DNA from: Rhizobium aethiopicum | Lineage (GTDB): Bacteria; Pseudomonadota; Alphaproteobacteria; Rhizobiales; Rhizobiaceae | NCBI RefSeq assembly: GCF_014197535.1 | Contig: NZ_JACIFV010000008.1 | Span: 62,001 to 126,000 of the forward strand | Reading direction: 5' to 3' | DNA length: 64,000 nucleotides | Shown: positions 48,246-57,598 of the stretch, piece after piece | Layout of the letters: the number at the start of each line of letters is the position of its first letter | How positions within the stretch are numbered: position 1 is the stretch's first letter | Notes under the pieces: generated by a model | Databases searched by the model: none | The model's input: the letters and a program-made list of their open reading frames with translations, nothing else | Told to the model about the DNA's origin: nothing | Position numbers and translations under genes: made by a program

Positions 48246-48259
48246 GACGAAGTTGAAAA

Positions 48260-48433
48260 CCCCTCCCCAACCCCTCCCCACAAGGGGGAGGGACTAAGCT
48301 GCGGTGTCCGGTAGTGACCTAAAAGAAGATGTCGTGCCGGGCTGTTACCGTTCTACGATTGCTACGGCAGAGGTTATGTGAAGCGGTGCGGCATCTTAGC
48401 CCCTCCCCCTTGTGGGGAGGGGTTGGGGAGGGG
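48260..48433. repeat. RIME-like intergenic palindromic repeat, type B
   Basis: Perfect 33-base inverted repeats at 48260-48292 and 48401-48433, made of CCCCTCCCCA-type words with ACAAGGGGGAGGG at the inner end, enclose 108 bases without an ORF. It is a different sequence from the element at 40605 but of the same style, and it lies between the convergent thuA-like and DUF2938 genes. It resembles the abundant palindromic intergenic repeats of Rhizobium. Confidence 0.82.
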
Positions 48434-48444
48434 TCTTGGCGATC

Positions 48445-48924
48445 TCAGCGCAGAATCAACGCCGTACCATAAAGTCCTAATGCAAACACCGTATGCGCCA
48501 GCAGATTGAAACACCGGACCTTCATCGGCTTCGGATGCTTGGACGCAGCCCAGCCGAGGCCGAGGCCCGGCTGCAGCAGGAACCACCCTGCCCCGACTGT
48601 GATGATGCCGAAAATCCAGGCGGGAAGAAATGTCGGGGCTGCCAACCATCCCTCTCCCATGATGAGCGCGAAGATCACGCCATAGAGAATGCCGACGGCG
48701 TAGTGGCTGAACCAGCCGAGTGCTAATTCACCAGCATAGGGCTCGGCATCGGCGATGTTCTCATGAAAGACCTTGCCGCGGCCGAGATGCCAGAACCAGC
48801 GGCCGACCGGCGCCCAGTTCGGCGGCGTCTGGCCGAAGACCTTCGTGAGCACGATCGCCCAGAGGTCCATGAGGATGGTTGCGCCGGCGCCGATCGCCAG
48901 ACCGCGCCATAAGATATCGAACAT
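48445..48924 (-). CDS. DUF2938 membrane protein
   Basis: 159-residue integral membrane protein with about four helices. Features: LAIGAGATILMDLWAIVLTK (first helix), TPPNWAPVGRWFWHLGRGKV (loop), ELALGWFSHYAVGILYGVIF (second helix) and the C-terminal NLLAHTVFALGLYGTALILR. These match the DUF2938 family, whose function is unknown. It stands alone on the minus strand between two plus-strand units. Confidence 0.8.
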   Translation of the reverse strand: MFDILWRGLAIGAGATILMDLWAIVLTKVFGQTPPNWAPVGRWFWHLGRGKVFHENIADAEPYAGELALGWFSHYAVGILYGVIFALIMGEGWLAAPTFLPAWIFGIITVGAGWFLLQPGLGLGWAASKHPKPMKVRCFNLLAHTVFALGLYGTALILR

Positions 48925-48996: not shown

Positions 48997-49066
48997 TCGG
49001 CAAGACATTCGCGGAGACATTGCGGCCAAGAGGCGCCCTCGACGGGGCCGTTGCTCCATCATCCGC

Positions 49067-49102
49067 AAAAAGGCATCGGTGCGGCCGCAAATTGATGCTT
49101 TT
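49067..49102. promoter_or_regulatory. Operator-like site before the creatininase-like gene
   Basis: AAAAAGGCATC, 16 bases, GATGCTTTT. The same arms with the same 16-base spacing occur at 50997-51031 before the NMT1-type importer. It ends 57 bases before the start codon. Probable LysR-protein binding site. Confidence 0.72.
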
Positions 49103-49159
49103 CGCAGGTAGCGTTATTCCCTACTCACAGTCTCGAACGGCAATGAGAGGCGAACGGCA

Positions 49160-49957
49160 ATGACACTGCCATTTTACTGGAACGAATTGGCCAGCGACGA
49201 CTTCGCCGGCTTGTCTCCCGACACCACCATCGCCGTTCTGCCGATCGCCTCGACCGAGCAGCACGGGCCGCATCTACCTGTCGCTACCGACGTGGCTATC
49301 GCCAATGGCATGCTCGTCGAGTTGCGCAAGCAGAAGCCCATCGATCTCGATTGTCTGGTGCTGCCGACACAGGAAATCGGCAAGGCCAATGAACATATCT
49401 ACGGCCCGGGAACCTTGTCGCTCGGCGCCGAACTGCTCATTCCGGTCTGGACCGCGATCGGCGCAAAGGTTGCCGAAGCCGGCATCCGCAAGATGGTGAT
49501 CGTCAACTCGCATGGCGGCAATGTCGATATTATGAGCATCGTGGCGCGCGAGCTGCGTGTGCGCTATGCGATGGCCGTCGTCTCCACGCAATGGGGCCGC
49601 TTCGGCCACCCCGAGGGTATGATCGGCGAGCATGAGCTGAAATACGGCATCCATGGCGGCGAGGTGGAAACGTCGCTGATGCTGCATTTCCGACCTGATC
49701 TGGTGCGGATGGAGAAGGCGCAGAATTTCACCTCCAAGGCGGAATGGATGCGGGAGCAATCGAATTACATTCAGCCGCTGCCGCCGCATTCGCTCGCCTG
49801 GATCGCGCACGATCTCAATCCCAACGGCGTGGTCGGCGACGCCTCGCTCGGGACCGCCGAAAAGGGCGAAGCAATTTGCCGCCATCAGGTCAAGGGCTTC
49901 ATAGAGCTGCTCTATGACCTGAAGCGTTACCCGCTTTCCAATCTCTACTCGAAGTAG
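49160..49957 (+). CDS. Creatininase-family amidohydrolase
   Basis: 265-residue metal-dependent hydrolase of the creatininase family (creatinine amidohydrolase, also FAPy deformylase and similar cyclic-amide or formamide hydrolases). Metal ligands show in STEQHGPHLPVATDVAIA (residues ~31-48: Glu, His, Asp), in NSHGGNVDI (~115-123) and in GEVETSLML (~170-178: Glu). The next gene is a convergent LysR regulator whose target motif precedes this gene too. With a CodA-like deaminase and RidA nearby, it probably opens or trims a nitrogen ring. True creatinine activity is not shown. Confidence 0.88.
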   Translation: MTLPFYWNELASDDFAGLSPDTTIAVLPIASTEQHGPHLPVATDVAIANGMLVELRKQKPIDLDCLVLPTQEIGKANEHIYGPGTLSLGAELLIPVWTAIGAKVAEAGIRKMVIVNSHGGNVDIMSIVARELRVRYAMAVVSTQWGRFGHPEGMIGEHELKYGIHGGEVETSLMLHFRPDLVRMEKAQNFTSKAEWMREQSNYIQPLPPHSLAWIAHDLNPNGVVGDASLGTAEKGEAICRHQVKGFIELLYDLKRYPLSNLYSK

Positions 49958-49978
49958 GACCTTGTCCCGAGCATTGGC

Positions 49979-50929
49979 TCACATCGCGGCGGAAGCATAG
50001 GCCGGAATGTGACCCTTGGCCTGCAGCTCCTGCACGAGTCCGGCCAGTTCGGCCAGGAGGTACTCGACGAACAGGCTGGTGGCGGAATCGAGCGGCGCGC
50101 GGGCGCGGGCAAAGAGCTTCATCGGCTGGTGGCGCGCATGCGGCTCGGCGATCGGCCGGAAGACCAGTTCACCCTGCCGGCATTCAGTGATGACATCGAG
50201 CGGGTTCAGGATCGTCAGCCCCGCCCCCGTTCTGACCAGCTTCTTCAGCATCTCCGAGGCATTGGTTTCGAGCACCGGTTCGACATGCACGTCGAGGCGC
50301 GCCAGGGCCAGATTAATCACGTCGCGCAGGCTGGTCCCTTGCTGCGCCAGCACGAGGCGCTCCTGGACGATATCGGCCAGGTTGATCGGGCCGGGACCGA
50401 TCAGATGGTGACCGGGCGGCAGAACCACGCCTATTGGAATGTCGAAATTGCCGAGGGTGCGGATGCCGGGCGTTGCCGGAATATTGAAGCCGAGGCCGAT
50501 ATCCACCTCACCTGAAAGCACCGGGTTGACCGTCATCGTGCCGGCGTCGTTGCGCAATTGCATGAAGACGCGCGGATGCTCCGACTGGAACCGCGCGATG
50601 ATTTCGGGGAGCGGCCCTGCAGCAAGGCCAACCGTTGTCACCAGCCGCACCTTGCCCGCCTGCTGCATCTTCAGGCTGCGGATGCGCCCCTCCAGCCGCT
50701 CGTAATTCTTCAGCACCTCGCGAATATGTTCGATGCAGAGTTCGCCGGCGGCCGTCAGGCGCAGGCCGCGTGGCAGACGCTCGAAGAGCGGCGCGCCCAT
50801 TTCCTCCTCCAGCGCGAGGATCTGCCGATTGATCGCCGAAGACGCCACGTTCAGCCGTGCCGCCGCCTTGCGGATCGAGCCCGAACGCGCAATCTCGTTG
50901 ATATAGAGAAGTTTTCTTGAGTGCAGCAT
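49979..50929 (-). CDS. LysR-family regulator of the heterocycle island
   Basis: 316-residue regulator. Helix-turn-helix: KLLYINEIARSGSIRKAAAR, then LNVASSAINRQILALEEEMG (residues ~5-45). The substrate-binding domain includes VRLVTTVGLAAGPLPEIIAR and LVRTGAGLTILNPLDVITE. The frame is open to 50947; the ATG ending at 50929 gives the normal family N-terminus. It is divergent from the NMT1-type operon and convergent with the creatininase gene, and both of those carry the same dyad, so it very likely regulates both. Confidence 0.88.
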   Translation of the reverse strand: MLHSRKLLYINEIARSGSIRKAAARLNVASSAINRQILALEEEMGAPLFERLPRGLRLTAAGELCIEHIREVLKNYERLEGRIRSLKMQQAGKVRLVTTVGLAAGPLPEIIARFQSEHPRVFMQLRNDAGTMTVNPVLSGEVDIGLGFNIPATPGIRTLGNFDIPIGVVLPPGHHLIGPGPINLADIVQERLVLAQQGTSLRDVINLALARLDVHVEPVLETNASEMLKKLVRTGAGLTILNPLDVITECRQGELVFRPIAEPHARHQPMKLFARARAPLDSATSLFVEYLLAELAGLVQELQAKGHIPAYASAAM

Positions 50930-50989
50930 CAGAACCCCGTCGCACAAAAATCAGGCACGCAGCGTAAATTAGGCACAAGCTTTCGGTGA

Positions 50990-51031
50990 GATGCCGAAAA
51001 GGCATCATTGCGCACGAAATTTGATGCTTTT
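50990..51031. promoter_or_regulatory. Operator-like cluster before the NMT1-type importer
   Basis: Three half-sites: GATGCC (50990), GGCATC (51001) separated by GAAAA, then 16 bases and GATGCTTTT (51023-51031). The GGCATC-N16-GATGCTTTT part repeats the site at 49067-49102. It lies in the gap between lysR and the importer, about 80 bases before the importer start, as expected for LysR activation. Confidence 0.74.
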
Positions 51032-51111
51032 CAAAGAGCAAAGCAACGGCTCCTATGAAGAAAATCGAACGTCGCCGCGACGGCTGCGAACTCAGAAGGG
51101 GAACGTCGATC

Positions 51112-52128
51112 ATGCCCATGACAAAGAAGAACAGGGTCTTTTCCGCATTGGGCGCGCTTGGCGGCATGATTGCCTCCATCGCGTCCGCTCAGGCGGCCGA
51201 CAAGGTCACCTATGGCACCAACTGGCTGGCGCAGGCCGAGCATGGCGGCTTCTACCAGGCGGTCGCCGACGGTACCTATGCCAAACACGGCCTTGACGTC
51301 ACCATCGTCCAGGGCGGCCCGAACGCCGCCAACAGCGCGCTTCTGATCTCCGGCAAAATCGATTTCTACATGGGTGGACCGCAGGGCGAGATTTCGGCCG
51401 TCGAGCAGGGTATTCCGCTCGTCGATGTCGCGGCGATCTTCCAGAAGGATCCGCAGGTGCTGATCGCACATCCCGATGCCGGCATCGAGAAATTCGAAGA
51501 TCTCGCGAAGCTCAAGACGCTGTTCCTCGGCAAGGACGGCTATCTCACCTATTTCGAGTGGATGAAGGCGAACTTCAAAGGCTTCAGGGACGAGCAGTAC
51601 AAGCCGTATAATTTCAGCCCGGCGCCCTTCCTTGCCGACAAGGATTCGGCGCAGCAGGGCTACCTTACCTCGGAACCCTACGAGATCCAGAAGCAGGCCG
51701 GATTCGAACCGAAAGTCTTCCTGCTCGCAGACAACGGCTACTCTCCCTATTCGACGATGATCACCACCACGCAAGCGATGATCGACAGTAAGCCGGATGT
51801 CGTCCAGCGCTTCGTCGATGCCTCGATCGAAGGCTGGTACCACTATCTCTATGGCGACAACGCGAAGGCCAATGAGCTGATCAAGAAGGACAATCCCGAA
51901 ATGACGGATGGTCAGATCGCCTATTCCATCGCCAAGATGAAGGAGTACGGCATCATCGAATCCGGCGACAGTCTCGACAAGGGCATCGGCTGCCTGACCG
52001 AGGGGCATTACAAGGCCTTCTTCGACGAAATGGTAGCGATCAAGGTGTTCAAGCCGGAGACGGATTACACCAAGGCGTTTACGACAAAATTCGTCTGCAA
52101 GGGCACCGGAATGGCGATGAAGAAATAA
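51112..52128 (+). CDS. NMT1/THI5-type ABC transporter substrate-binding protein
   Basis: 338-residue periplasmic binding protein. The signal peptide contains VFSALGALGGMIASIASAQA, cleaved near residue 30. The mature start DKVTYGTNWLAQAEHGGFYQ and the ALLISGKIDFYMGG segment mark the NMT1/THI5/ThiY-like group, several of which bind pyrimidines such as hydroxymethylpyrimidine. The ATG at 51112 behind AGGGGAA is preferred over the longer frame to 51055, since it leads straight into the signal. It is the first gene of a six- or seven-gene operon. Ligand inferred to be a nitrogen heterocycle because deaminase, oxidase and RidA follow. Confidence 0.9.
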   Translation: MPMTKKNRVFSALGALGGMIASIASAQAADKVTYGTNWLAQAEHGGFYQAVADGTYAKHGLDVTIVQGGPNAANSALLISGKIDFYMGGPQGEISAVEQGIPLVDVAAIFQKDPQVLIAHPDAGIEKFEDLAKLKTLFLGKDGYLTYFEWMKANFKGFRDEQYKPYNFSPAPFLADKDSAQQGYLTSEPYEIQKQAGFEPKVFLLADNGYSPYSTMITTTQAMIDSKPDVVQRFVDASIEGWYHYLYGDNAKANELIKKDNPEMTDGQIAYSIAKMKEYGIIESGDSLDKGIGCLTEGHYKAFFDEMVAIKVFKPETDYTKAFTTKFVCKGTGMAMKK

Positions 52129-52196: not shown

Positions 52197-53024
52197 ATGC
52201 CCCCAGCAGAAGCTCAGGCCCTATCACCGAAAGAAGCGCGCAAGCGGCCGCTGGTCGTCATGCAATCGGTCTCGAAAGTCTTCTCCAGCGGAACCGTGGC
52301 CCTTTCGAATATGTCGCTGACCGTGGAAAGCGGTGAGTTCATCAGTCTGCTCGGTCCGTCCGGCTGCGGTAAATCCACGGCGCTGCGCATCATTGCCGGC
52401 CTCGGCAATGTCTCCTCGGGCGCGATCGACTGGCCAAGTTCGCGCATCAACTCCAAGGGTCTCCCCGAGGGCGATATCAGCTTCGTCTTTCAGGAGCCGA
52501 CGCTGATGCCCTGGAAGACCGTGTTCGATAATGTCCATCTGCCGCTGAAGCTGAAACATGTTTCGAAGGCTGCGGCGCACGATCGGATACTGGAGACGCT
52601 GAGCACCGTCGGGCTTCAGGATTTCGCCAGCGCCTATCCGCGCGAACTCTCCGGCGGCATGAAGATGCGTGTGTCGATCGCCCGGGCGCTCGTGACCAGG
52701 CCGAAGCTCCTGCTGATGGATGAGCCCTTCGCGGCGCTTGATGAGATCACCCGCCAGAGGCTGAACGACGACGTGCTGCGGCTCTGGAAGGTGACCGGCA
52801 TCACCGTCATCTTCGTCACTCATTCGGTCTTCGAATCCGCCTATCTCTCGAACCGCATCGTCGTGATGAAGGCAAGACCTGGGCGCGTTCATGCCGATCT
52901 GCCGCTGACGACCAGCCTTGAACGCGATGCTCATTACCGCACTTCGGAAGAATACCGCAGAGCTTGCGAGACGGTCTCGCATTCGCTGATCGGGGCGATC
53001 AACGCGGTGGAGGACCATCGATGA
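52197..53024 (+). CDS. Nitrate/taurine/pyrimidine-type ABC transporter ATPase (SsuB/TauB-like)
   Basis: 275-residue ATPase: Walker [10 protein letters not shown] (residues 53-61), Q-loop FVFQEPTLMPWKTVFDNV, signature LSGGMKMRVSIARA and Walker B LLLMDEPFAALDEITRQ, with switch His in FVTHSVFESAYLSNRI. The PFAALDE pattern is diagnostic of the SsuB/TauB/ThiZ subfamily. Its stop overlaps the permease start by 4 bases. Confidence 0.92.
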   Translation: MPPAEAQALSPKEARKRPLVVMQSVSKVFSSGTVALSNMSLTVESGEFISLLGPSGCGKSTALRIIAGLGNVSSGAIDWPSSRINSKGLPEGDISFVFQEPTLMPWKTVFDNVHLPLKLKHVSKAAAHDRILETLSTVGLQDFASAYPRELSGGMKMRVSIARALVTRPKLLLMDEPFAALDEITRQRLNDDVLRLWKVTGITVIFVTHSVFESAYLSNRIVVMKARPGRVHADLPLTTSLERDAHYRTSEEYRRACETVSHSLIGAINAVEDHR

Positions 53025-53863
53025 GTGACGAACCGGCCGAAGCGCCGCTGGTTTTCAAAACTATGGCAAGCGCCAAGGGCCGCGATCTGGCGCTGCGCAT
53101 CTTGATCCCCCTGCTGGTGATCGCGGCGCTGATCCTGATCTGGTCTGCCTATGTCAGACTGTCCGGCGTGCCGCCCTATATCCTGCCGGGCCCTGCGGCG
53201 GTCGCCAGTGCCCTCGTGACCGACTGGGGCACGCTTGCCCCTGCCCTCTGGGTCACCACCAAGATCACCCTGATGTCGCTGATGCTGGCGCTTGTCGGCG
53301 GCGTCGGTTTTGCGATCTTCCTCGTGCAGTCGCGCTGGATCGAACTCGCCTTCTATCCGCTCGCGGTCATTCTTCAGGTCACGCCGATCGTGGCGATCTC
53401 GCCGCTGATCCTGATCTATGCGCCGTCGACGCAGGTGGCGCTGCTGATCTGCGCCTTCCTGGTAGCGTTTTTCCCGATCCTTTCGAATATGGTGCAGGGG
53501 CTGAAAAGCGTCGACCATAATCTCATCAACCTGTTCGAGCTCTACGGCGCCTCGCGCTGGCAGACGCTGCTCTTTCTCAAGCTGCCGGCCGCCCAACCCT
53601 ATTTCATGACGGGTCTCAGGATCGGCGGCGGCCTGGCGCTGATTGCCGCCGTCGTCGCGGAATTTGCCGCGGGCTCGGCGGGCGCCGGCTCCGGTCTCGC
53701 CTTCCGGCTCCTCGAAGCGCAGTATCGCCTCAATATTCCGCGCCTCTTTGCGGCGCTGCTGATGCTCTCGCTGCTCGGCGTGGCGATCTTCGCCGTCACC
53801 TCCTTCATTTCGTGGCTTGCCCTGCACCGCTGGCACGAAAGCAGCCTGAAACGGGAAAACTGA
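53021..53863 (+). CDS. SsuC/ThiX-type ABC transporter permease
   Basis: 280-residue inner-membrane permease with about six helices. LSGVPPYILPGPAAVASALV is the family opening, and the EAA-like loop reads NLINLFELYGASRWQTLLFL, then KLPAAQPYFMTGLRI. GLALIAAVVAEFAAGSAGAG is the helix before the C-terminal end. The ATG at 53021 overlaps the ATPase stop; the longer frame is rejected. The stop shares one base with the start of the deaminase gene. Confidence 0.91.
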   Translation: MSDEPAEAPLVFKTMASAKGRDLALRILIPLLVIAALILIWSAYVRLSGVPPYILPGPAAVASALVTDWGTLAPALWVTTKITLMSLMLALVGGVGFAIFLVQSRWIELAFYPLAVILQVTPIVAISPLILIYAPSTQVALLICAFLVAFFPILSNMVQGLKSVDHNLINLFELYGASRWQTLLFLKLPAAQPYFMTGLRIGGGLALIAAVVAEFAAGSAGAGSGLAFRLLEAQYRLNIPRLFAALLMLSLLGVAIFAVTSFISWLALHRWHESSLKREN

Positions 53864-55176
53864 TGACCTATTCCTTCATCTCCCCGCCCAATGCCGGCCG
53901 CTTCGTGCTGAGCAACGCAACCCTGCCTGCCGCTGCCGTCGCCGGTTATGAGGCGCCTGTTGTCGAGGGGCTCGTCCGAGCCGATATCGTCATCGCCGAC
54001 GGCGTGATTTCCGCCCTGCTGCCGGCCGGCGGAGCGCCCGTAGAATTGGCGAAGTCCGACCTGAAGGAGGGCATGGTCTGGCCCTGCTTCGCAGACATGC
54101 ACACGCACCTCGACAAGGGCCACATCTGGCCGCGCAACGCCAATCCGGACGGCACATTCCCGGGAGCGCTGGAGGCCGTGCGCGCAGACCGCGAGGCAAA
54201 CTGGTCGGCCGCCGACGTCAAGAAGCGCATGGAGTTTTCCCTTCGATCTGCCTACGCACACGGCACCAGCCTCATTCGAACCCATCTCGATTCCCTTGCG
54301 CCGCAGCACCGCATTTCATTCGAAGTCTTTGCCGAAATGCGCGATGTCTGGAAGGACAGAATCGCTTTACAGGCGGTGGCGCTGTTTCCGATGGAAAACA
54401 TGGCGGACGCGGCCTATTTCGCCGATCTCGTCACTGTGGTCCGCGAAAAGGGCGGGCTGATCGGCGGCGTCACCCGGATGAGCGGCGATCTCGACAGCCA
54501 GCTCGACATGTTGTTCAGAGCTGCGGCCGAGAACGGCCTCGATGTCGATCTTCATGTCGACGAGACCGACGATCCGGCTGCGGAAACCCTCAAGGCAATT
54601 GCCCAAGCCGTCCTGCGCAACCGCTTCGGCGGCAAGGTAACGGCCGGCCATTGCTGCTCGCTCGCCCGCCAGGACGAGGAGACGGCAAAACGCACGGTCG
54701 ATCTTGTCGCAGAGGCCGGTGTCGCCATCGTCTCACTGCCGATGTGCAACACGTATCTGCAGGACCGCTATCCCGGTCGCACACCGCGCTGGCGCGGCGT
54801 CACCCTGTTCAAGGAGCTGGCCGCGGCCGGCGTTGCAACCGCGGTCGCCTCCGACAATACCCGCGATCCCTTCTATGCTTATGGCGATCTGGATGCGGTG
54901 GAGGTGTTCCGCGAGGCGGTCCGCATCCTGCACCTCGACCATCCGCTGAATACGGCTGCGCGTGTCGTCACCACCTCGCCGGCCGATATTCTCGGCCGGC
55001 CGGATATGGGGCGCATCGCCGTCGGCGCATCGGCCGATCTCGTTCTCTTCAGCGCCAGGCGCTGGAGCGAATTTCTTTCCCGTCCGCAGTCCGACCGCGT
55101 CGTCCTTCGTCGCGGCAAGGTGATCGACCGCAGCCTGCCGGACTATCGTGAACTCGACAGCGTCGTTGGAGCCTGA
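53863..55176 (+). CDS. CodA-like cytosine deaminase / amidohydrolase
   Basis: 437-residue metal-dependent hydrolase of the cytosine deaminase branch of the amidohydrolase superfamily. Metal and catalytic motifs: ADMHTHLDKGHIWPRN (near 82-97), DLHVDETDDPAAETL (~228-242), VTAGHCCSLARQDE (~260-273) and ASDNTRDPFYAYGDL (~330-344), which together match CodA. CodA relatives also deaminate creatinine and other cyclic ureas. It starts on the last base of the permease stop, so it is coupled to the importer and should act on the imported compound. The ring substrate is not known. Confidence 0.88.
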   Translation: MTYSFISPPNAGRFVLSNATLPAAAVAGYEAPVVEGLVRADIVIADGVISALLPAGGAPVELAKSDLKEGMVWPCFADMHTHLDKGHIWPRNANPDGTFPGALEAVRADREANWSAADVKKRMEFSLRSAYAHGTSLIRTHLDSLAPQHRISFEVFAEMRDVWKDRIALQAVALFPMENMADAAYFADLVTVVREKGGLIGGVTRMSGDLDSQLDMLFRAAAENGLDVDLHVDETDDPAAETLKAIAQAVLRNRFGGKVTAGHCCSLARQDEETAKRTVDLVAEAGVAIVSLPMCNTYLQDRYPGRTPRWRGVTLFKELAAAGVATAVASDNTRDPFYAYGDLDAVEVFREAVRILHLDHPLNTAARVVTTSPADILGRPDMGRIAVGASADLVLFSARRWSEFLSRPQSDRVVLRRGKVIDRSLPDYRELDSVVGA

Positions 55177-55177
55177 C

Positions 55178-56587
55178 ATGCCGGATTATCAGACGATCAG
55201 CCAAGAACTCGAAGGCATCGCCATCGAAGACAATCCGGCGCTGGTGCGCCAGAAGAGCCGCGATTTCTACTGGTATTCGCCGATCCTGAAGGCGCAGCTC
55301 GATAATGTGACGGCCGACCTCGTCGTCACGCCGAAAAACGAAGAAGAGGTCATCCGGACGTTGAAAGTCGCCTTCGCGCACGGCGTGCCGGTCACGCCGC
55401 GCGGCGGCGGCACCGGCAATTACGGCCAGGCGATGCCGCTTTCCGGCGGGATCGTGCTCAATCTGGCGGCCATGGACAAGATCAAGGAAATCCATCCCGG
55501 CCGCGTGATCTGCGAGCCGGGCATCATCATTGCCCAGCTCGACAAGCAGACCAAGGCTCATTCCGGCCAGGAACTGCGGTTCCATCCCTCGACGGCGCAG
55601 ATGGCGACGGTCGGCGGCTTCATTGCCGGCGGCTCCGGCGGCGTCGGCTCGATCACCTGGGGCGGCTTGCGCGATCTCGGCAATATTCTGCGCCTGCGCG
55701 TCGTCACCATGGAGGCCGAGCCGCGCGTGCTCGATCTCACCGGCTGGGACCTGCAGAAGGTCAGCCATGCCTACGGCACCAACGGCATCATCACCGAGAT
55801 CGAAATGCCGCTGGCGCCTGCCTATGACTGGGTCGATGTTCTCGTCGGTTACGATGACTTCATGGCCTGCGTGCGCTTTTCGGACGCGCTGGCCAAGTGC
55901 AACGGCATCCTCGTCAAGGAAATCGCCCCGATCGCCGCTCCGATCCCGCACGACTATTTCACTCGCCACAAGCCTTATATCCGCAAGGGGCAGTCGGTGG
56001 TGGTGTTGATGATCGCGCCGCATGCGATGGACGCCTTCCTGGCCTTCACCTCGGCCCACAAGGGCGAAGTGATCTTCCGCTCCGACAAGGTCGAGAGCAT
56101 GAAAGGCATTCCGCATGCCTATGAACTTGCCTGGAACCACACGACGCTGCGGGCGCTGAAAGTCGATCCCGGCTTCACCTATCTGCAGGTTCAGTATCCC
56201 GGGCCGGATCACGTGGCCAAGGTCGCCAAGATGGTGGAGATCTTCGGCGACGAAGTTCCGGGGCATCTGGAGTTCATCCGGTTCGACGGGCAGATCCAGT
56301 GCTCCGGCCTGCCGCTGGTGCGCTACACCACCGAAGAGCGCCTTGAAGTGATCATCCGGATCCACCAGGATCACGGCTGCCCGATCTTCAACCCGCACCG
56401 CTATACGCTCGAGGAAGGTGGCATGAAGCGCACCGACAAGGTGCAGCTTGCCTTCAAGCATGAAACCGATCCCAAGGGGCTGCTGAACCCCGGCAAGATG
56501 ATCGCCTGGGAGAACCCTGACTTCGATTTCAATGCCGGCAAGAACTATCTCTTCCCCGGCCTTGCCAGCGTCATGGAGGCCTCATGA
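55178..56587 (+). CDS. FAD-linked oxidase (GlcD/VAO family)
   Basis: 469-residue flavoprotein of the vanillyl-alcohol oxidase/GlcD fold. The FAD pyrophosphate loop is VTPRGGGTGNYGQAM (residues ~75-89), with GFIAGGSGGVGSITWGGLRD (~145-164) as the second FAD contact, and a C-terminal cap with FNPHRYTLEEGG near 407-418. No covalent-FAD histidine is obvious. It starts one base after the deaminase stop; the longer frame is rejected. It probably oxidises the deaminated ring or a ring-opened hydroxy acid, with the NAD(P)H oxidoreductase beside it. Confidence 0.86.
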   Translation: MPDYQTISQELEGIAIEDNPALVRQKSRDFYWYSPILKAQLDNVTADLVVTPKNEEEVIRTLKVAFAHGVPVTPRGGGTGNYGQAMPLSGGIVLNLAAMDKIKEIHPGRVICEPGIIIAQLDKQTKAHSGQELRFHPSTAQMATVGGFIAGGSGGVGSITWGGLRDLGNILRLRVVTMEAEPRVLDLTGWDLQKVSHAYGTNGIITEIEMPLAPAYDWVDVLVGYDDFMACVRFSDALAKCNGILVKEIAPIAAPIPHDYFTRHKPYIRKGQSVVVLMIAPHAMDAFLAFTSAHKGEVIFRSDKVESMKGIPHAYELAWNHTTLRALKVDPGFTYLQVQYPGPDHVAKVAKMVEIFGDEVPGHLEFIRFDGQIQCSGLPLVRYTTEERLEVIIRIHQDHGCPIFNPHRYTLEEGGMKRTDKVQLAFKHETDPKGLLNPGKMIAWENPDFDFNAGKNYLFPGLASVMEAS

Positions 56588-57165
56588 GGGTTCTCGTGCT
56601 GCATTCGCATCCGGTGGAGGAAAGCTACGGCAAGGCCCTCTACAAGCAGACGCTGGAAAGCCTGCGCAAAGCCGGCCACGACGTGGACGGATGCGATCTT
56701 TACGCCGAGAATTTCGATCCCGTTCTTTCCCGGCATGACCGGCTCAGCTATCACGACTATCCCGGCAACACCGAACTGGTGAAATCCTATGTCGAGCGGC
56801 TGAAGCGGGCCGAAGGGCTGGTGCTGGTCACGCCGATCTGGAATTTTGGCTTCCCCGCAATATTGAAGGGATATTTCGATCGCGTCTGGCTTCCCGGCGT
56901 CTCGTTCGAACTGGTCGACGGCAAGGTGGAATCGCGGCTGCGCCATATCAGGAAGCTTGCCGCCGTGCTCACTTATGGCGCCACGCCGTTCCGGGCTTTT
57001 GTGGCCGGAAATCCGCCGAAGAAGATCGTCAAGCGCGTGCTGCGAGCCCAGATCTACCCGCTGCGGCCAGTCACCTTTCTTGCCCACTACGACATGAACA
57101 ACTGCACTGAGGAAAGCCGGATACGCTTTCTGGAGAAGGTGAAGAACGCCATGGAGCGCTACTGA
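56584..57165 (+). CDS. Flavodoxin-fold NAD(P)H oxidoreductase (MdaB/NQO type)
   Basis: 193-residue protein with the flavodoxin_2 fold. VLHSHPVEESYGKALYKQTL is the FMN/FAD phosphate loop, and LVLVTPIWNFGFPAILKGYF with DRVWLPGVSF the isoalloxazine-contact segment, typical of MdaB/KefF/NQO1-type reductases. Its ATG overlaps the oxidase stop by 4 bases, a sign that the two act together. Possible role: two-electron reduction of a quinone-like or iminoquinone-like intermediate. Confidence 0.86.
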   Translation: MRVLVLHSHPVEESYGKALYKQTLESLRKAGHDVDGCDLYAENFDPVLSRHDRLSYHDYPGNTELVKSYVERLKRAEGLVLVTPIWNFGFPAILKGYFDRVWLPGVSFELVDGKVESRLRHIRKLAAVLTYGATPFRAFVAGNPPKKIVKRVLRAQIYPLRPVTFLAHYDMNNCTEESRIRFLEKVKNAMERY

Positions 57166-57208
57166 ACATCCGGGCCGCAGCGACACCTCGTTCAAGCAGG
57201 GAATGCCG

Positions 57209-57598
57209 ATGAAGAAGGTTTTCAATCCCTCATCCGTCCGCCGCCCGTTCGGACATTACAATCACGGGCTATTGGTGCCGCCGGGCGCCTCGCTGCTCGT
57301 GACCTCGGGTCAGCTCGGCATCGGCCCCGACGAGATCGTGCCGGAGGATATCGGCGCACAGGCGGAACTCTGCTTCGAGGCAATCAAGGCAATTCTCGCC
57401 GAGGCCGAGATGAGCTTTGGCGATGTGATCCGAATCTCCGCCTTTGTGACGAAACGCGAGGATTTCCCGGCTTATATGGCGGTGCGGGATCGCTATACCT
57501 TGGATCCGAAGCCGGCCTCAACGCTGATCATCGTCAGCGGCTTCACCCGGCCTGACTTTCTGGTGGAAGTCGAAGCGACGGCCGCCAAAGTATTCTGA
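57209..57598 (+). CDS. RidA-family (YjgF/RutC-like) protein
   Basis: 129-residue trimeric-type protein of the RidA/RutC superfamily, which hydrolyses enamines, imines or aminoacrylates. GASLLVTSGQLGIGPDEIVP and AILAEAEMSFGDVIRISAFV are family hallmarks; RYTLDPKPASTLIIVSGF has the usual Pro-Ala-x-Thr site but keeps no canonical RidA arginine. Its alkyl-binding face may therefore accept other substrates. The ATG at 57209 has AGGGA seven bases ahead; an ATG at 57203 is less likely. It ends the heterocycle operon, as RutC does in the Rut pyrimidine pathway. Confidence 0.87.
   Translation: MKKVFNPSSVRRPFGHYNHGLLVPPGASLLVTSGQLGIGPDEIVPEDIGAQAELCFEAIKAILAEAEMSFGDVIRISAFVTKREDFPAYMAVRDRYTLDPKPASTLIIVSGFTRPDFLVEVEATAAKVF

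Follow-up and report, generated by a model that had tools for sequence, protein, structure and literature searches.

A conserved paired element before a creatininase-family gene and an importer operon in Rhizobium points to a two-promoter LysR-type regulon

In the window, by which we mean the whole 64,000-nucleotide stretch of Rhizobium aethiopicum DNA that was analyzed, a lysR-family gene lies between a creatininase-family hydrolase gene and an operon encoding an importer and several enzymes (Table 1). The creatininase gene and lysR are convergent rather than divergent. An earlier note had proposed that a paired sequence found before both units makes the separate creatininase gene and the operon one regulon. 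Is this sequence an operator, and do the two units answer to one regulator? From the sequence evidence assembled below, we consider it likely that the two copies are sites of a single transcription factor, most likely the LysR encoded between them, and that they define a two-promoter regulon.

Table 1. Genes and predicted regulatory features of the locus (window coordinates)
Feature	Position	Strand	Remarks
Recognition-box position, creatininase promoter (ATCCGCAAAAAGGCATC)	49061-49077	+	Inner half conserved, outer half degenerate
C-site AAAAGGCATCGGTGCGGCCGCAAATTGATGCTTTTC	49068-49103	+	56 bp before the creatininase start codon
C-site right arm GATGC	49094-49098	+	CTTTTC in -35 position, 49098-49103
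Putative -10 of creatininase promoter, CCTACT	49120-49125	+	16 bp after CTTTTC
Creatininase-family hydrolase gene	49160-49957	+	PF02633, E 1.9e-70
lysR-family regulator gene	49979-50929	-	HTH_1 + LysR_substrate (PF00126, E 1.4e-18; PF03466, E 1.1e-39)
S-site recognition box GATGCC-GAAAA-GGCATC	50990-51006	+	Perfect 6-bp palindrome with T-N11-A
S-site core AAAAGGCATCATTGCGCACGAAATTTGATGCTTTTC	50997-51032	+	Right arm GATGC, 51023-51027; CTTTTC in -35 position, 51027-51032
Putative -10 of importer operon, TCCTAT	51051-51056	+	18 bp after CTTTTC
Substrate-binding protein, NMT1/THI5-like	51112-52128	+	PF09084
ABC transporter ATPase	52197-53024	+	PF00005
ABC transporter permease	52964-53863	+	PF00528; ORF start overlaps ATPase gene
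Amidohydrolase, PRK07583 "cytosine deaminase" family	53812-55176	+	NF005759, 694.8 bits (cut-off 403); ORF start overlaps permease
FAD-binding oxidoreductase	55148-56587	+	PF01565
Flavodoxin-fold NAD(P)H oxidoreductase	56584-57165	+	PF02525
RidA-family protein	57203-57598	+	PF01042

Some gene boundaries in Table 1 differ from those of the longest open reading frames or are likely to shift. The substrate-binding protein likely starts at 51112 and not at the longest-ORF start, 51055, because that start and the ribosome-binding site before it (AGAAGGGGAAC) are conserved in relatives; translated from there, the protein has a signal-peptide-like start. The true start of the permease is probably near 53021. 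The genes on the left flank, thuA and the ORF at 48445-48924, were rejected as part of the system, since they are absent near most relatives. Between the two lies a 47-base inverted repeat (window 48256-48437; AAAACCCCTCCCCAACCCCTCCCCACAAGGGGGAGGG...; 94% complementary, 88 bases between the arms), which looks like a dispersed intergenic repeat element.

Anatomy of the paired element

The sequence GGCATC-N16-GATGCTTTT occurs twice in the window, on the same strand and with identical spacing, at 49072-49102 and 51001-51031, and an A-run stands immediately left of GGCATC at both copies. This agrees with the earlier note except in one coordinate: the second copy was placed correctly, while the first was started at 49071, one base early. 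The shared element is larger than was described there. It spans 36 bp with the form AAAAGGCATC-N16-GATGCTTTTC, and its two copies, the C-site before the creatininase gene and the S-site before the importer operon, are identical at 30 of 36 bases, the match extending into the spacer (10 of 16 bases). When the two upstream regions were compared without gaps, their best match scored 24; 1000 dinucleotide shuffles gave a mean of 9.4 and a maximum of 15. For random pairs of segments from the window, about 1000 of them, scores averaged 10.0 and went as high as 29; this top score is probably due to repeated sequence in the window, where one repeat of that kind was found. Because random segment pairs reach 29, the shuffle test alone is not our main argument, which is instead conservation.

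The earlier note had called the element a dyad. It is best read as a composite, in which the left arm is the inner half of a recognition box of LysR type and the right arm is a half-site that covers the -35 position. GATGCC and T-N11-A are present at the importer promoter in 79 of 79 relatives, and the T-N11-A palindrome also in every distant S-site listed. At the creatininase promoter of the window genome T-N11-A is absent; among the relatives, the outer half of the box is degenerate at most creatininase promoters, and T-N11-A, with T at position 3, is found in only 18 of 79 C-sites. The two copies are therefore not equivalent, the full T-N11-A palindrome being found at the importer promoter only. 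We regard the C-site as a variant, half-palindromic site, and the binding predicted there may differ. In one distant genome (G584; L152, 1404 and 3310) both sites have shifted to GGCAGC, and its creatininase site reads GCTGCC/GGCAGC, such that the change in one half is mirrored in the other; this matched change, a single case, is only suggestive. The right arm GATGC lies 21 bp, or two helical turns, from the left arm GCATC, so both arms would lie on the same face of the DNA.

Candidate -10 elements follow both copies. Conserved TCCTAT/TCAAAT (importer) and CCTACT/CCGTAT (creatininase) lie 16-18 bp beyond CTTTTC, a position that fits -10 elements. The assignment at the importer promoter is based on CGCTCAAATG/CGCTCCTATG, conserved in relatives, and that at the creatininase promoter on TCCCTACT/GCCGTAT, conserved in relatives at the same distance. 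Transcripts would then start near 51063 (importer operon) and near 49132 (creatininase), and the palindrome would be centered at about -65 with the right arm over -35. A consensus scan found no sigma-70 consensus promoter here, which is consistent with an activator-dependent promoter, although as evidence it is weak. The site core also lies 66-68 bp from the start codon of lysR itself in nearly all relatives, and thus autoregulation is possible.

The position of the element in the 5' regions of catabolic and transport genes, together with its inverted repeats, would also suit an element acting as RNA, a riboswitch or leader, instead of as a DNA operator. We think this extremely improbable. No Rfam family matched near the element; the conserved sequences presumed to be -10 elements stand beyond its downstream end, which would leave it outside the sense transcript; and it is the letters that are conserved, as for a protein-binding site.

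Rarity and conservation of the element

The earlier note had raised the possibility that the dyad is scattered at random through the genome. This is not the case. Allowing up to three mismatches, a genome-wide scan found the full pattern at only these two promoters in the 6.49-Mb genome, and a reversed control pattern gave zero matches genome-wide. A profile search scored the two copies at 52.4 and 48.4 bits, and the next match at 17.5 bits. The bare core GCATC-N16-GATGC has 17 exact copies in the genome, and for this reason the arms alone are not diagnostic; it takes the A/T runs at the flanks and the conservation of the spacer to identify a site. One core match that resembles an S-site in reverse (C9:171078, L012) was set aside as chance, since the A/T runs are missing from it and it looks like coding sequence.

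We compared 80 related loci, mostly from Rhizobium but also from Shinella, Pararhizobium and other Rhizobiales. Gene order is the same in all 80: creatininase, lysR on the opposite strand, substrate-binding protein, ATPase and the deaminase-family gene, with the FAD oxidase and the reductase next in order wherever the contig is long enough. In every one of them lysR is divergent from the importer operon, with a site in the shared intergenic region. One locus (L094) begins inside the creatininase gene and was left out of counts that need the DNA upstream of it; in the 79 loci where that DNA is intact, both sites are present (79 of 79) and at near-constant positions, the exception being L074, whose creatininase site is 179 bp out. 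The relatives thus carry the element at both promoters, in the genus and beyond.

The C-site block is sharply bounded in these 79 relatives. Its arms carry on average 1.82 and 1.92 bits per base and its spacer 1.34, compared with 0.08-0.39 bits per base upstream and 0.55-0.59 downstream. These figures bear on the possibility that the similarity arose by chance or through an old duplication of DNA without function, a reading for which the 17 genomic copies of the bare core could be cited. We give it practically no credence: the match score lies well above the maximum of the 1000 shuffles, and both copies have been conserved over a divergence that erased their flanks, so that the conservation data already refute it.

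Among 100 genomes of the genus, the element and the creatininase gene were found in the very same 84; the remaining 16 have neither, and the reversed control pattern was absent from all 100. Exactly two copies are present in 81 of the 84. A single copy was found in one genome (G003), probably because the contig ends in the creatininase gene, and two genomes (G022 and G048) have a third, C-type copy each. Neither was accepted as a new target. The third site of G048 precedes a remnant duplicate of the creatininase gene: at L129 3709 onward (G048:C17), a truncated creatininase duplicate with a near-intact C-site lies beside amidase-like and isochorismatase-like reading frames. That of G022 (L128 3691, G022:C80) is a C-type site with one base changed in the right arm; an intact creatininase gene is missing after it, and we are less sure of its origin.

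Within 10 kb, no third site was found in the 80 related loci, including the DNA upstream of inverted ridA genes; two extra strong matches in that scan turned out to be the usual S-sites of two loci, L044 and L086, whose query match started late. The ridA gene is co-directional with the operon in the window and inverted in many relatives, and where inverted it has no copy of the site. In ten further genomes, a profile search returned exactly two strong sites each, with the next match at 18.1 bits or less.

Link between the element and the LysR ortholog

Co-occurrence of site and regulator inside one linked locus is partly trivial, because genes and their upstream DNA travel together. Across the order, the S-site is present in the divergent intergenic region in 15 of 15 genomes with an ortholog of this LysR, 10 of them outside the genus. 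Conversely, 16 homologs of the importer protein (61-69% identity) with no adjacent ortholog of this LysR have the site in none, a comparison that is confounded with evolutionary distance. Creatininase paralogs examined in the same genomes (39-48% identity) have no site.

The most telling case for linking the site to the regulator is G454, a genome from another family and the one genome found in which creatininase and lysR are unlinked. In it, lysR (70% identical) and the importer operon remain divergent, with an S-site present, while the creatininase gene (70% identical) sits about 10 kb away from lysR and has retained its own C-site (46.3 bits). The unrelated block of genes in between contains, by our reading of the translations, sugar-transport-like and FGGY-kinase-like frames. 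The site is thus found at both units and is rare elsewhere, and in this single genome it is found at both although they lie apart.

Both sites might instead be bound by another, unlinked regulator, such as one of nitrogen or carbon metabolism, with the adjacent LysR acting elsewhere or only at its own promoter. The C-site, which lacks the full LysR-type palindrome, would fit such a protein. We nevertheless judge this distinctly unlikely. An unlinked global regulator should have other promoters, but there are only two sites here and two in each of the ten further genomes; moreover, the element occurs beside this LysR ortholog and is absent at homologs without it. Because the element co-occurs with the LysR ortholog, including where the creatininase gene is displaced, the regulon of creatininase gene and operon proposed in the earlier note is well supported: the element marks these two promoters only, is conserved and is kept in G454.

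Predicted mechanism, pathway and relation to known systems

For this regulon we infer LysR binding, activation rather than repression, the inducer and the start sites. In the mechanism we propose, (i) a LysR-type tetramer would anchor about 65 bp before each start, at the recognition box, using the strong palindrome GATGCC-N5-GGCATC at the importer promoter and a half-site at the creatininase promoter; (ii) an inducer, probably the imported compound or a pathway product, would bind, and the other dimer would then engage GATGCTTTTC over -35; and (iii) the protein so placed would activate a weak promoter, switching both units on. Through the box at the divergent promoter, LysR would also regulate its own gene. 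LysR could instead bind both sites as a repressor that is released by inducer, given that the right arm overlaps the presumed -35 and could equally block RNA polymerase. We consider repression unlikely, since activators in divergent LysR-type systems usually have a box near -65 and a half-site at -35 (PMC3382589, PMC11739112), and since the presumed -35 and -10 elements are poor.

What might the regulon be for? The enzyme set suggests breakdown of a nitrogen ring compound. We lean slightly toward the view that the regulon marks an uncharacterized catabolic route for such a compound from soil or roots, with a dedicated LysR-type sensor and, as its members, the NMT1-type importer, the creatininase-family hydrolase, the PRK07583 deaminase, the FAD oxidase, the flavodoxin-fold reductase and RidA. 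Urea amidolyase and amidase genes lie directly upstream (left) of creatininase in only 11 of the 80 loci and were accordingly rejected as a core part; this arrangement is seen, for example, on plasmid pC of R. etli CIAT 652 (L197). These neighboring genes hint that the pathway may release urea or allophanate as a product.

This sequence evidence ties the separately transcribed creatininase-family gene to the importer and breakdown operon, so a search for the substrate can take the whole gene set as one pathway. A ready reporter is also at hand in the conserved site: a promoter fusion could be screened against candidate compounds for the inducer. In addition, the locus offers a case of a regulon that stays whole although its members have been separated in the genome.

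A literature search found no paper on this cluster or regulon; automated Rhizobium motif collections could contain it. One of these, RhizoBindingSites, provides automated footprint motifs for nine symbiotic species, among them R. leguminosarum bv. viciae 3841, as stated in its source paper (PMC7674921). That strain carries this locus, which in R. johnstonii 3841 lies on pRL12, and the collection may already hold a motif for these genes.

The recognition-site/activation-site model of LysR-type regulators (PMC11739112) and the PltR/pltL system, in which the PltR lys box lies at -74 to -53 (PMC3382589), provide the closest points of comparison in the cited literature. As in PltR/pltL, lysR here is divergent from its predicted target operon and a palindromic T-N11-A box would be centered at about -65. 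In contrast to PltR/pltL, a second half-site lies toward -35, a separate second promoter (creatininase) carries the element, the box sequence, GATGCC-N5-GGCATC, is different, and binding is predicted. In the AtzR/atzDEF system of cyanuric acid catabolism, the gene of a LysR-type protein diverges from an operon for the breakdown of a nitrogen ring compound. The present locus shares that divergent arrangement, but here the predicted target promoters are two, the operon includes an importer and the enzymes are different, and there is no sign of a shared substrate. Divergent LysR-type regulators that act through a T-N11-A operator are thus a well-known kind, and the present one would have a second target promoter.
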